Shown: positions 19,373-25,005 of the stretch, piece by piece | Layout: each line of letters opens with the position of its first letter | Position numbering within the stretch: position 1 is the first letter of the stretch | NCBI GenBank assembly: GCA_023128895.1 | Contig: JAGMDC010000010.1 | Coordinates: 1 to 39,804 of the forward strand | Length of the DNA stretch: 39,804 bases | Source: Candidatus Parcubacteria bacterium | GTDB taxonomy: Bacteria; Patescibacteriota; Minisyncoccia; Minisyncoccales; JAGMDC01 | Reading direction: 5' to 3' | Program-made: the position numbers and the translations under genes | The notes under the pieces: generated by a model | What the model saw: the letters and a program-made list of their open reading frames with translations, nothing else | What the model was told of the DNA's origin: nothing | Database searches by the model: none

Positions 19373-20623
19373 CTATTTGATTGAGCGTTTTAGGGCTACA
19401 ATTGCGCTGGCAGACAATAAAGCAAGTATTATTGCCGCAAATTTAAAATTTCCAGCGACCTGGCCCATGCCATCTGCAAAAGGCACTCCGTGCTTAACCG
19501 GGTTAAGCACAGGGGTGTTAAGCACAGGGGTCAGACCCTTGTCAACCTGTTTATTGTCGGTGTTGATTGCGCTGGTTTTTTTTACATTTTTTGTGTTTTT
19601 TGTTTCATTTGTATCCTCGGAAATAATGTTTTCCCAGCCCGGAGTTAAAACGTTGCTCCAAACCCATTTGCCGCCAATTCTATTATAGGATTGATTTAAT
19701 TTTGCTTTTTCATAAACAACAGCGTCTATGATTGTTCCATTCGGCTGGATTAAATTCAATCCGTCGTTGCTGTTGTTTAGTGTTATTTTTGTTTGCGGCC
19801 TTTGGAGCAATAAAAATGATTTTGCATGAATTATTGTATTTTGCGGCAGGGTGTATGATTTTATTTTGCCCTGTGTGTCGGTGATTTTCCAACGAGAGAT
19901 GTCAACAGGAAAATTGTTTTGGTTAAAAATTTCAATCCATTCGTTTTCAGCGTCAGACCCTTCAGGAGACGGCAGAATCTCATTGATAATTACGCCCTCG
20001 GGATATTCAATTATCAAAGGTTCAACCTTTGATTGTTTGATTGTTGGTTTGGTCGCGGTCTCGGGTTTTAACGGCTTGGAGTTTTCTGCCATTGGGGTAC
20101 CGCGCGCGGCAGCACTTGTCTGCCAGTTGTCCGCGCTTGCGCCGCTGGTCTTAAGGTTTTTTCTTTCCATTGTTTTGTAATCTGGTTTTGCTTCTCCCGC
20201 GAACCATTTATCAGAGCAGTTAATATCGTCAATTATATTGGAATTATTGTCTATGAGTTGAATATGTTCTCCGCTGTTTTTCAATCCATAGCCAGACCAT
20301 CCGCTTGGTGTTTGGCTTGCTAAAATATCAGGAATTGTTGTATCATCTGTTCTTTCTATAATATAGTAGGAGAATTTTGGTATTGAATTAAGCAAGGGCT
20401 CAATCAGGGTTTGTTTGTTATTTTCGTATATCCCCCATTGAGCAAGACTAATATCCTTGTTGGTGTTATTGTAAAGTTCTATCCATTCGTCAGCGCTGCT
20501 AATTTCTGTTCCCATCCAGCAAATTTCGCTGATAACAATGTCCAATGCATTTGCCGCAAAAACAAAATTTGCCGGACATAAGCCGGCAAATAAGATAACT
20601 AATATGAACAAAAAGAGTTTCAT
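19373..20623 (-). CDS. Secreted/membrane-anchored lamin-tail-domain (LTD) protein with two LTD repeats
   Basis: Signal-like N-terminus; 'IVISEICWMGTEISSADEWIELYNNTNKDISL' and 'VIINEILPSPEGSDAENEWIEIFNQNNFPVDISRWKITD'; C-terminal TM. Confidence 0.85.
   Translation of the reverse strand: MKLFLFILVILFAGLCPANFVFAANALDIVISEICWMGTEISSADEWIELYNNTNKDISLAQWGIYENNKQTLIEPLLNSIPKFSYYIIERTDDTTIPDILASQTPSGWSGYGLKNSGEHIQLIDNNSNIIDDINCSDKWFAGEAKPDYKTMERKNLKTSGASADNWQTSAAARGTPMAENSKPLKPETATKPTIKQSKVEPLIIEYPEGVIINEILPSPEGSDAENEWIEIFNQNNFPVDISRWKITDTQGKIKSYTLPQNTIIHAKSFLLLQRPQTKITLNNSNDGLNLIQPNGTIIDAVVYEKAKLNQSYNRIGGKWVWSNVLTPGWENIISEDTNETKNTKNVKKTSAINTDNKQVDKGLTPVLNTPVLNPVKHGVPFADGMGQVAGNFKFAAIILALLSASAIVALKRSIK
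19490..19537. repeat. Palindrome plus direct repeat near the 3' end of the LTD gene
   Basis: GTGCTTAACC-G-GGTTAAGCAC then a second GTTAAGCACAGGGGT copy; encodes 'LTPVLNTPVLNPVKHG'. Confidence 0.85.
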
Positions 20624-20625
20624 TT

Positions 20626-21657
20626 TTACAGCAGGTTTTGGGTTCCGGTATATTTGATTCCAAGATGTTCATACGCGGATTTTTCAGCAATTCTGCCGCG
20701 CGGAGTTCTTTGTATAAAACCCAACTGCATCAAATATGGTTCGTAGATATCCAAAATAGCGTCTTTGTCTTCGTTGCTTGCCGCGGCTAAACTTTGAACT
20801 CCTACAGGGCCTCCGTTAAATTTTTTAATAATTGTTTCTATCACCCTCCTGTCTCCGGTTTCCAAACCCAAGTTGTCAATTTCCAAAAAATCTAAGGCAG
20901 ATTTAGCTATTTTTTCAGTAATTACTCCCTCGCCTTCAACTTGCGCCCAATCCCTCACTCTTTTCAAAAGACGGTTTACAACCCTGGGCGTAAATCTGGC
21001 GCGCTGGGCGATAATTTTTTTCGCAGAGGGCTCTATTTCTATTCCCAAAATTTCAGCAGAGTTTTGTATGATTTTTTCCAATTCTTCGTTATTGTAATAA
21101 TCCATTTGGAAAATCGCGCCAAATCTGTTTCTTAAAGGCGAGGAAAGCAGGGCGACGCGCGTGGTCGCGCCAATCAAAGTAAAACGGTTAAGTTTCATAT
21201 CCATAATTCGAGCCATGGGACCTTTGCCTAAAATTATATTAAGTTTGAATTCTTCCATTGCCGGGTAAAGGTATTCTTCGCAAACTCTGTTGATGCGGTG
21301 GCATTCGTCTAAAAACAGAATATCGCCGTCTGACAGATTAGTTAGGATTGAAGCCAAATCGCCAATTTTTTCAATTGACGGGCCAGTAGCAATGTGCAGA
21401 TTAGCACCCATTTCTTTGGCAAATATGCGCGAGATTGTGGTTTTTCCCAGTCCAGAACCGCCGTAGAAAAGAAGATGTTCCGGCACTTCTTTTCTTTTTT
21501 GCGCCGCCGTAAGAATTATTTTGAGATTTTTCTTAATTCTTTCCTGCCCGATATATTGGTTCCATGTTTTGGGGCGCAAAGTTAAATCAAGGACTTTGTC
21601 CTCATCATCGGATTGGTTTTCAAGTATGCGATTGTTGTTTGTTGTGGGGGTTGACAA
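20626..21657 (-). CDS. ruvB: Holliday junction branch migration helicase RuvB (start position uncertain, apparent TTG)
   Basis: 'LRPKTWNQYIGQERIKKNL', 'HLLFYGGSGLGKTTISRIFAKEMG', 'LFLDECHRINRVCEEYLYPAMEEF', 'LGIKY'. Confidence 0.95.
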   Translation of the reverse strand: MSTPTTNNNRILENQSDDEDKVLDLTLRPKTWNQYIGQERIKKNLKIILTAAQKRKEVPEHLLFYGGSGLGKTTISRIFAKEMGANLHIATGPSIEKIGDLASILTNLSDGDILFLDECHRINRVCEEYLYPAMEEFKLNIILGKGPMARIMDMKLNRFTLIGATTRVALLSSPLRNRFGAIFQMDYYNNEELEKIIQNSAEILGIEIEPSAKKIIAQRARFTPRVVNRLLKRVRDWAQVEGEGVITEKIAKSALDFLEIDNLGLETGDRRVIETIIKKFNGGPVGVQSLAAASNEDKDAILDIYEPYLMQLGFIQRTPRGRIAEKSAYEHLGIKYTGTQNLL

Positions 21658-21678
21658 AATAATAGTTTTAAGTATAAT
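21651..21678 (+). promoter_or_regulatory. Near-consensus sigma70 promoter driving a + strand transcript between ruvB and pilB
   Basis: TTGACA (21651-21656), 16-nt spacer, TATAAT (21673-21678). Confidence 0.8.
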
Positions 21679-21684
21679 AAATAA

Positions 21685-21830
21685 TAAAAGTAAGTTGGTT
21701 TAGGGTCGGGGGGTGATGGAATTTCTTTTAGTTTCGGGTAATTCGGGTCGTGCTGGGTTATTCCTCAAAGAGGTTCTATACTTTAAGTTTTTAAACTGAA
21801 GTTATACCCCCGACCCTAAGCCAATTTTTT
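21685..21830 (+). ncRNA. Candidate structured small RNA (~146 nt), identity unknown
   Basis: Promoter above; closing stem TTGGTTTAGGGTCGGGGGGT (21695-21714)/ACCCCCGACCCTAAGCCAA (21806-21824) followed by TTTTTT (21825-21830); internal stems TTTTAGTTT/AAACTGAAG and CCTC-AAA-GAGG; no ORF called on this strand in the interval. Confidence 0.7.
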
Positions 21831-21834
21831 GTTG

Positions 21835-23163
21835 TTACATTATTCTATCCAATTCTTCAAGCGTTGTAACTCCCTCTAAAATTTTGAGCAAGCCGTCCTG
21901 CTCCATAGTTACCATTCCTCTTGCCAACGCCTTCTCCCTTATTTTCGCGGTAGAGGGATATTTGGTGATAAATTTTTCCATTTCATCGTCAATAGGAATT
22001 ATTTCAAAAATGCCCATCCTTCCTTTGTATCCTGTATTATTGCAGTATTTACATCCCTTTGCCCGAACAATTTTCAAATTTTTATCAATTTTTTGCGCAA
22101 GTTTTATGGACTTAGGTATACCCTTAAGCCCTGTTTTTATTTTCTTCAATTCTTCAGCAGACGGTTTTTCTTTTTTAGAACATTTTTTGCAGACCTTTCT
22201 TACTAATCGCTGTGCTGCGGCAATGTTCAGTGCAGGACCAATGTTCGGCAGATGGGCGCCAAGCGCGATAAGGCGCGCAATGGTCCCGACAGCGTCATTT
22301 GTATGCGCAGTGCTTAAAACCAAATGCCCTGTGAGAGCCGCCTGAATAGCGATTTTCACTGTTTCCTGGTCCCTGATTTCGCCGACCAATATCACGTCAG
22401 GGTCCTGGCGCACAATTGCCCTTAATCCATTGGCAAAATCATATCCTTTATTCTCGTTTGTCTGGGTTTGCGAAATGCCCTTAATATGATACTCAATTGG
22501 GTCTTCTATTGTAATAATTTTGATTTTCGGGTTATGGATTTTTTTCAAAATCGCGTACAGAGTGGTTGTTTTTCCAGACCCTGTGGGACCAGTCATAATA
22601 ATCATTCCATTGGGTTTCTGGATTTCCTGTTGGAAAATTTCAAACAGGTCTTTTCTCAATCCTAATTGTTCAATTTCAATCAGGGATTTTGGATTTAATA
22701 TTCTTAATACCAATGATTCGCCATACTCTGTTGGCAAGGAAGATGTTCTGATTTCAATGTTTTCTTCCTTGCCGAAAACAATGGAAAATCTGCCGTCCTG
22801 CGGCTTGCCGCTGATATTCAATTTAATGCCGCTCAAAAGTTTGATTCGCGACAGTAAAGCATTGTATTTTATAATATCCATTTCCGCCACATCCTGCAGG
22901 ATGCCGTCTATTCTTGTCCTGATTTTTGCTTTGTCTTTTTTCGGTTCAATATGAATATCAGACGCGTCCATACTTATTGCGCCGCCTAAAATTATTTGTA
23001 AAAAATCAGTGGTTCTTTTATCCAGATTTTTTTTAATCGCTTTTTTGAAATCAGGGACATTGGCAATGCTTTTTGATATCTTTGCGGATACAGCAGGGGA
23101 TATAATTATTTGGCCTATTATTTTGTCTTCCATAATTTTTGCATAAAAAAAACGGCTAAACAC
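21835..23163 (-). CDS. pilB: Type IV pilus assembly ATPase PilB/GspE family (real start probably the internal Met 'MEDKII' near 23133)
   Basis: 'DASDIHIEPKKDKAKIRTRIDG', Walker A 'MTGPTGSGKTTTLYAIL', 'ITIEDPIEY', 'DPDVILVGEIRDQETVKIAIQAALTGHLVLSTAHTNDAV', zinc motif 'CKKCSKK...CKYCNNTGYKGR'. Confidence 0.95.
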   Translation of the reverse strand: MFSRFFYAKIMEDKIIGQIIISPAVSAKISKSIANVPDFKKAIKKNLDKRTTDFLQIILGGAISMDASDIHIEPKKDKAKIRTRIDGILQDVAEMDIIKYNALLSRIKLLSGIKLNISGKPQDGRFSIVFGKEENIEIRTSSLPTEYGESLVLRILNPKSLIEIEQLGLRKDLFEIFQQEIQKPNGMIIMTGPTGSGKTTTLYAILKKIHNPKIKIITIEDPIEYHIKGISQTQTNENKGYDFANGLRAIVRQDPDVILVGEIRDQETVKIAIQAALTGHLVLSTAHTNDAVGTIARLIALGAHLPNIGPALNIAAAQRLVRKVCKKCSKKEKPSAEELKKIKTGLKGIPKSIKLAQKIDKNLKIVRAKGCKYCNNTGYKGRMGIFEIIPIDDEMEKFITKYPSTAKIREKALARGMVTMEQDGLLKILEGVTTLEELDRIM

Positions 23164-23988: not shown

Positions 23989-25005
23989 ATGCCTCAAAAT
24001 AACTCAACACAAGAAGGATATATTTCTTTAACTGAAGCCACAAAATACTGCGATTACACGCAGGAATATTTATCATTGCGCGCGCGGCAAGGTAAACTAA
24101 AAGCAGTGAAGTTTGGCAGGAATTGGGTTACTAAAAAAGAGTGGGTTCAGGAATACTTTGGCGCTACTAACAGCGAGAAAGCAAAAGAGCAGGCGGGAAA
24201 GACGCAAAAGGCGCAAAGATTTTTATTTTCAGCCGATAGATTGTTTTCCTCTGTCGCGGAATTGCTGATACTTGTCCGGCGATTAAGCGCAAACCTCAAA
24301 ATAGTTGTTAAGAGGCCAGAACTCAAATACGCTGTTGTAGGGGTTCTGCTTTTTATTTTTATAGGCGCTGGATTTGTTTTGGGCGCGCCCAAACTTTCTG
24401 TTGCCAAGGATTTGTTTGTGGAAGGACTGGTTATTTTTTCCGAGGAAGTGAATCGCGGCGTTTCAAAATTTTCTGAAGATGTTGGATATGTTTCCGATAC
24501 TACGCGCGAAATGGCAAAAATTCCGTCTGTAAATATTATTCAAGAGATTTTAAATGGCGCTGGGCAGATCAGTATGCCTTTTACTCAAAAGGTGTGGTGG
24601 CATGCCTTTTTCGATAATGTCCGCGTGGGGGGTGAAATAATTGCAGAGGTTCCGTTATTTGCTGTTTCAACAATAAGTGATAAAGTAAAAGAGACAAAAC
24701 AATTTGTCAGCGAAAATTTTTTTTCTACCAGAAGCGGCGTCAAAACAGTTGTACAAAGTTTTCGCAACGCGAAAAATTGTGTAATCAATGGAGCGAAAAA
24801 TACAGTGATCGCGATAGCGCATATTCCTCCGTATATAGCAAACAAAATTTTCGCATTTGGAGACAGCGCGATAAATAGAATTTCTACAATAGAAGATAGC
24901 GCGTTCTATGGACTTGCATACACGGGCAGTATGTTCATGGAGTATATACAGTGGCTGAATCAAATAGTTGTTCAGCCGCCGCTATCCGCACCCGCGCCAC
25001 AGTGA
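23989..25005 (+). CDS. Membrane-anchored protein with N-terminal excisionase/MerR-type HTH domain (C-terminus possibly frameshifted)
   Basis: 'YISLTEATKYCDYTQEYLSLRARQGKLKAVKFGRNWVTKKEWVQEYF' HTH; TM 'YAVVGVLLFIFIGAGFVLGA'. Confidence 0.75.
   Translation: MPQNNSTQEGYISLTEATKYCDYTQEYLSLRARQGKLKAVKFGRNWVTKKEWVQEYFGATNSEKAKEQAGKTQKAQRFLFSADRLFSSVAELLILVRRLSANLKIVVKRPELKYAVVGVLLFIFIGAGFVLGAPKLSVAKDLFVEGLVIFSEEVNRGVSKFSEDVGYVSDTTREMAKIPSVNIIQEILNGAGQISMPFTQKVWWHAFFDNVRVGGEIIAEVPLFAVSTISDKVKETKQFVSENFFSTRSGVKTVVQSFRNAKNCVINGAKNTVIAIAHIPPYIANKIFAFGDSAINRISTIEDSAFYGLAYTGSMFMEYIQWLNQIVVQPPLSAPAPQ

Follow-up and report, generated by a model that had tools for sequence, protein, structure and literature searches.

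A conserved structured RNA predicted between ruvB and pilB in Parcubacteria-type Patescibacteria

Comparison with relatives establishes that the DNA between ruvB and pilB in a Parcubacteria genome encodes a predicted structured RNA on the + strand that has been maintained in evolution, and conservation extends to its promoter and geometry, to the number of copies and to the order of the genes around it. We read it, with about an even chance of being right, as a new family of standalone housekeeping RNA in the Parcubacteria-type class of Patescibacteria, whose rod would dock a protein; RNA polymerase, in a role resembling that of 6S, is the most plausible one. The 39,804-nucleotide stretch of DNA that was analysed (the window) belongs to an assembly of 741 kb in 11 contigs, and the relatives of its ruvB are found in Nealsonbacteria, Staskawiczbacteria, Portnoybacteria and similar Parcubacteria. 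The first-pass annotation had proposed an unannotated standalone RNA at this position, and judged by sequence alone the proposal is supported, as a promoter of its own, a terminator and the lack of a conserved reading frame are all found. The features, numbered along the window, are these:

20626 to 21657, - strand: ruvB, divergent neighbour (Pfam RuvB_N/lid/C)
21651 to 21678, + strand: promoter, with the -35 element TTGACA at 21651-21656, a 16-nt spacer and the -10 element TATAAT at 21673-21678
21685 to 21830, + strand: predicted transcript of the structured RNA, from fold energy and a covariance-model match
21692 to 21712, + strand: 5' arm of P1, 21 pairs in the minimum free energy (MFE) fold, with compensatory changes in every modelled P1 pair
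21716 to 21731, + strand: 5' strand of P2, with a conserved AG at 21730-21731; in lower P2, 10 of 11 pairs covary
21732 to 21735, + strand: 5' bulge between P2 and P3, UUUC here and mostly 2-5 nt in the family
21736 to 21763, + strand: P3 apical hairpin, 11 bp and a hexaloop; 7 of 11 pairs covary
21764 to 21779, + strand: 3' strand of P2, which together with the end of P3 forms the conserved UUCCUC
21780 to 21802, + strand: P4, the 3' hairpin in the junction, variable in length, with compensatory changes in 9 of 9 modelled pairs
21807 to 21827, + strand: 3' arm of P1, pairing with 21692-21712 and forming a terminator-like end together with the T-run
21825 to 21830, + strand: terminal T-run (U6 in the RNA); most homologues have a T-rich tail
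21835 to 23163, - strand: pilB (T2SSE ATPase; Pfam T2SSE), convergent neighbour, its stop codon 4 nt beyond the T-run

The promoter, which the first-pass annotation had also placed on the + strand, matches the consensus at 12 of 12 positions and is the sole perfect site in the region; the T-run that it had reported at the end is likewise present. Transcription would start about 7 nt past the -10 element and end at the T-run, for a length of about 140 nt. Because the TTG listed as the ruvB start falls inside the -35 element, that gene probably begins further in. In 54 of 67 homologues the 75 nt preceding the RNA contain a promoter that scores at least 9 of 12, in almost every case with an exact TTGACA and a spacing of 16-17 nt, and the score is 11 or 12 in 44 of the 67, with the promoter located 5' of P1. 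The best score averages 10.4 of 12 in relatives, against 8.0 in mononucleotide shuffles. Copies with a displaced P1, L060, L071 and L087 among them, score at background within the 75-nt upstream stretch.

The + strand folds with an MFE of -64.7 kcal/mol, against -34.7 +/- 3.6 for shuffles (z -8.25), and the covariance model matches the window copy at 21696-21823. In this model the architecture is a three-way junction made up of the closing stem P1, a rod (P2, bulge and P3) and the 3' hairpin P4. The first-pass annotation had instead described a long rod with internal bubbles; its near-perfect closing stem of about 19 bp is there, but its CCTC-AAA-GAGG is no apical hairpin, being the 3' strand of the rod, and its paired elements TTTTAGTTT and AAACTGAAG are not partners, as they lie in P2/bulge and in P4, respectively. 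The hexaloop of P3 reads GTCGTG (21747-21752). In one homologue (genome G024, L014 1505-1696, - strand) the apical loop of P3 is enlarged by a long insertion, the remainder of the RNA being intact.

Covariation and conservation in relatives, which had been named as the check on this RNA, were assessed in a main alignment of 68 sequences and 48 modelled pairs, and they proved strong: compensatory changes occur in 42 of the 48 pairs, and 90.4% of cells pair. The covariation score is 0.581 in this alignment and, in agreement, 0.577 in one of 73 sequences; both alignments had been fitted to the structure of the model, which biases their scores in its favour. For the 68 sequences the score drops to 0.238 +/- 0.007 when shuffled and to at most 0.182 with partners slid. 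An independent MAFFT alignment of ten sequences shows compensatory changes in 17 of 36 predicted pairs. A further alignment (A4) was left out because it contained antisense matches.

The geometry of the rod is nearly fixed. P3 is 11 bp long in 67 of 68 homologues and P2 spans 14 nt of the model in 63 of 68, while the junctions, P1 and P4 vary in length. Conserved bases gather round the bulge, with AG before it, GG after it and UUCCUC opposite; a G-U pair lies beside the bulge in 58 of 68 copies, and the loop-closing G-C is found in all 68. We infer that the conserved bases and fixed length of P2, bulge and P3 make up a docking surface.

The + strand direction, which the first-pass annotation had taken from G-U wobble pairing, is borne out: read on the + strand, the 68 homologues hold 426 G-U pairs against 84 A-C mismatches, and the minus-strand fold is much weaker (-36.8 kcal/mol, z -3.6); a minus-strand structure was rejected on both counts. 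A small peptide was also considered and rejected. A 27-codon ATG frame exists in the window copy, yet the family does not preserve its peptide, and a frame of at least 15 codons of any kind occurs in just 10 of 68 copies.

The arrangement ruvB leftward, RNA rightward, pilB leftward is conserved. In loci selected by ruvB, that gene is divergent in 66 of 66 matched cases, and in 63 of 66 a convergent pilB lies no more than 400 bp away. When loci of the order were found via the RNA itself, pilB was convergent in 30 of 30 and ruvB lay within 1.5 kb in about 17 of 30; most loci at class level retain both genes. Two other window genes may be mentioned here: directly downstream of ruvB, a protein with lamin tail domains (19373-20623, - strand), and at 23989-25005 (+ strand) a 338-aa ORF that has no Pfam match, whose N-terminus resembles a helix-turn-helix and which contains a hydrophobic segment later in the sequence.

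Searching at the DNA level recovered the RNA from 4 of 4 other family members that were searched, and from some of the order's genomes. A covariance model built from ten sequences (R1; cut-off E <= 0.1 for the order) matches 156 of 196 genomes of the order and, in a separate collection, 66 of 80 ruvB loci, a count from which two antisense echoes were excluded. With a broader model, R3, and a cut-off of E <= 0.01, the count for the class is 245 of 387 genomes; about 4 chance matches are expected in that search. Nearly every positive genome has a single copy. Two matches each were found in G004, G013 (G013:C5:3206-5935), G053 and G746; the G013 and G746 genomes each have two RNA copies, and those of G053 (G053:C33:8266-8546) are in tandem.

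Individually weak matches outside the class were obtained in f102 (L148, L149), f258, f271, f273 (L185-L187) and at L095; the search that yielded L148, L149 and L185-L187 was expected to give about 4 chance matches, and these five were seen. A further match, L189, was discarded as a false positive built of a short repeat. The f102 copies are likely homologous to the window family; L148 has ruvB 1.1 kb away, and P4 is missing from L148 and L149. Of the distant copies, L148 and L150 have no pilB beside them, and a P1 end of the type CUGYAGGCA/UUGCCURCAG recurs in many. Homology is unproven for the matches in f258, f271 and f273 and at L095. In L095 (3365-3472, - strand) and L185, L186 and L187, P1 is followed by an invariant CACGACAAGYAYGG, absent from the other loci compared, and CUUCUUG precedes the 3' arm; these elements of other classes may be a related or a separate RNA.

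Rfam 15 contains no match at gathering score to the window or to 15 distant loci, and relaxed thresholds gave nothing relevant for the window or the homologues, so the match to a described family that the first-pass annotation had allowed for was not found; the hits to MIR8562, mir-5444 and Yfr19 lie far below gathering scores. The 6S model (RF00013) gave no score up to E = 10 in the window (cmscan, relaxed) and none in the RNA's own genome. A large single-stranded central bubble between closing stem and terminal loop is the hallmark of 6S (PMC4064990, PMC1242208). In most copies of the new RNA P2 starts 3-5 nt past P1, with covariation among its pairs, so the resemblance to 6S-type RNAs that had been pointed out is only a loose one: it extends to the topology, with a closing stem, a junction bearing a 3' hairpin and an apical rod, but not to the large open central bubble.

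Across the phylum, RF00013 matches 16 of 146 genomes and none of the few sampled from the RNA's own class, and with detection this poor the absence from the class is weak evidence. The patescibacterial 6S matches are 143-160 nt long, with a GGG..CCCACCU-hairpin anatomy; the 5' strand of their bubble is open, and most have a 3' hairpin of the form ACCU..AGG. They do not adjoin ruvB or pilB, and the new family model does not recognise them, nor is there a match the other way. We rule out canonical 6S on this anatomy, location, absent Rfam score and lack of cross-match. The 6S RNAs themselves (L151-L160) mostly score below the Rfam gathering score, are often near tRNA genes, and would escape annotation at Rfam cut-offs.

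We propose that the sigma-70-type consensus promoter drives strong transcription of a probably abundant RNA, which P1 and the T-run would terminate. P1 and P4 would serve as a clamp whose length is free to vary, and the fixed-length rod as the working surface, including the conserved AG/bulge/GG motif facing UUCCUC and the conserved G-U pair, to which a protein would bind in trans. That the RNA binds some protein partner we consider probable. We favour RNA polymerase, tentatively and by analogy, because the RNA is reminiscent of 6S in its size, its topology and its number of copies, and because the few class members sampled yielded no 6S; with this partner, the RNA would work as a 6S-like stable regulator without being canonical 6S. 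The closed junction counts against such a role. It is somewhat less likely than not, in our estimate, that the RNA is an undescribed class-wide housekeeping RNA, as basic here as 6S or SRP RNA elsewhere and engaged in neither 6S-type regulation of RNA polymerase nor protein targeting, with distant relatives carrying CACGACAAGCAUGG, a second conserved element, extending the family to other classes. The RNA probably performs a basic cellular job that is not yet described.

Several other explanations deserve weight. The rigid conserved rod with its internal motif and the lasting linkage to ruvB and pilB would also suit an RNA that serves as a scaffold or sequesters proteins and has nothing to do with RNA polymerase, perhaps acting in translation, RNA decay or DNA uptake; we regard this as quite possible, if no better than tentative, given that streamlined genomes can keep gene order without a functional link. 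Descent from a true 6S, highly diverged, whose central bubble has shrunk and whose 3' bubble hairpin survives as P4, could account for the similar size and topology, for RF00013 being matched in other classes and not its own, and for the lack of any genome with both RNAs among the samples searched with both models. We nevertheless think it unlikely, as the open 5' bubble strand is missing, the conserved sequence differs and the anatomy, neighbours and model scores of patescibacterial 6S set it apart as described above.

Regulation of a neighbour, by antisense pairing to the pilB 3' end or by a transcript that competes with ruvB initiation, would fit the conserved gene order, the distance of 4 nt between the end of the T-run and the pilB stop, and the back-to-back promoters of RNA and ruvB. 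It strikes us as improbable: neither coding region contains the RNA, antisense pairing leaves the covarying helices and fixed rod unexplained, about 13 of the 30 order loci have no ruvB inside 1.5 kb, and the distant copies that have no pilB beside them do not fit. P1 is indeed a strong inverted repeat between the RNA and a convergent gene, but a mere two-way terminator, or a pilB 3' UTR on the - strand, is very hard to reconcile with the strand signal from G-U pairs, the weaker - strand fold, the conserved + strand promoter and the covariation of P2, P3 and P4 inside. Fainter still is the prospect of a diverged signal recognition particle RNA. The genome and phylum do have no recognisable SRP RNA, as the small SRP RNA was found in 0 of 288 genomes of the phylum and SRP RNA in 1 of 60 of the order, at a contig end (L142, G020:C22:29-128), which may be contamination. 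The Ffh M domain (PF02978), however, was absent from all 12 genomes of the order searched (the RNA's own and 11 relatives; controls positive 14 of 14), and the signal recognition particle seems to have been lost in the order. This explains why the helix-8 motif is absent, as the first-pass annotation had rightly remarked; the GGAA loop is absent too, there is no SRP match in Rfam, and we rejected an SRP RNA on these grounds.

Few class-wide housekeeping RNAs exist in bacteria, and this large class consists of ultra-small, mostly uncultured organisms whose genomes are reduced to 0.5-1 Mb. We found no such RNA for the group, and no paper on this one, in the open-access literature that was searched; subscription papers or preprints may already describe it. 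These genomes are small and the relatives tested do without SRP, yet most of those sampled retain one copy of the RNA behind a near-consensus promoter. Knowing its partner would either explain RNA polymerase regulation in these bacteria or bring to light a new RNA-protein machine, and the family model annotates, in hundreds of genomes, a gene that Rfam annotation would miss.

Among known systems, 6S/SsrS (RF00013) is like the new RNA in being a standalone sigma-70-type transcript (here a predicted one) of similar size, with one gene copy, a closing stem, a junction with a 3' hairpin and an apical rod. The new RNA differs in having no large bubble, other conserved sequence, other neighbours and no model match either way. 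The bacterial small SRP RNA (RF00169) is likewise a compact housekeeping RNA with a long rod, but the new RNA has no helix-8 motif, its relatives have no Ffh, and it gives no match. Intrinsic terminators between convergent genes share the GC-rich inverted repeat and T-run, whereas the new RNA has its own promoter, a long structured interior and covarying helices P2-P4.
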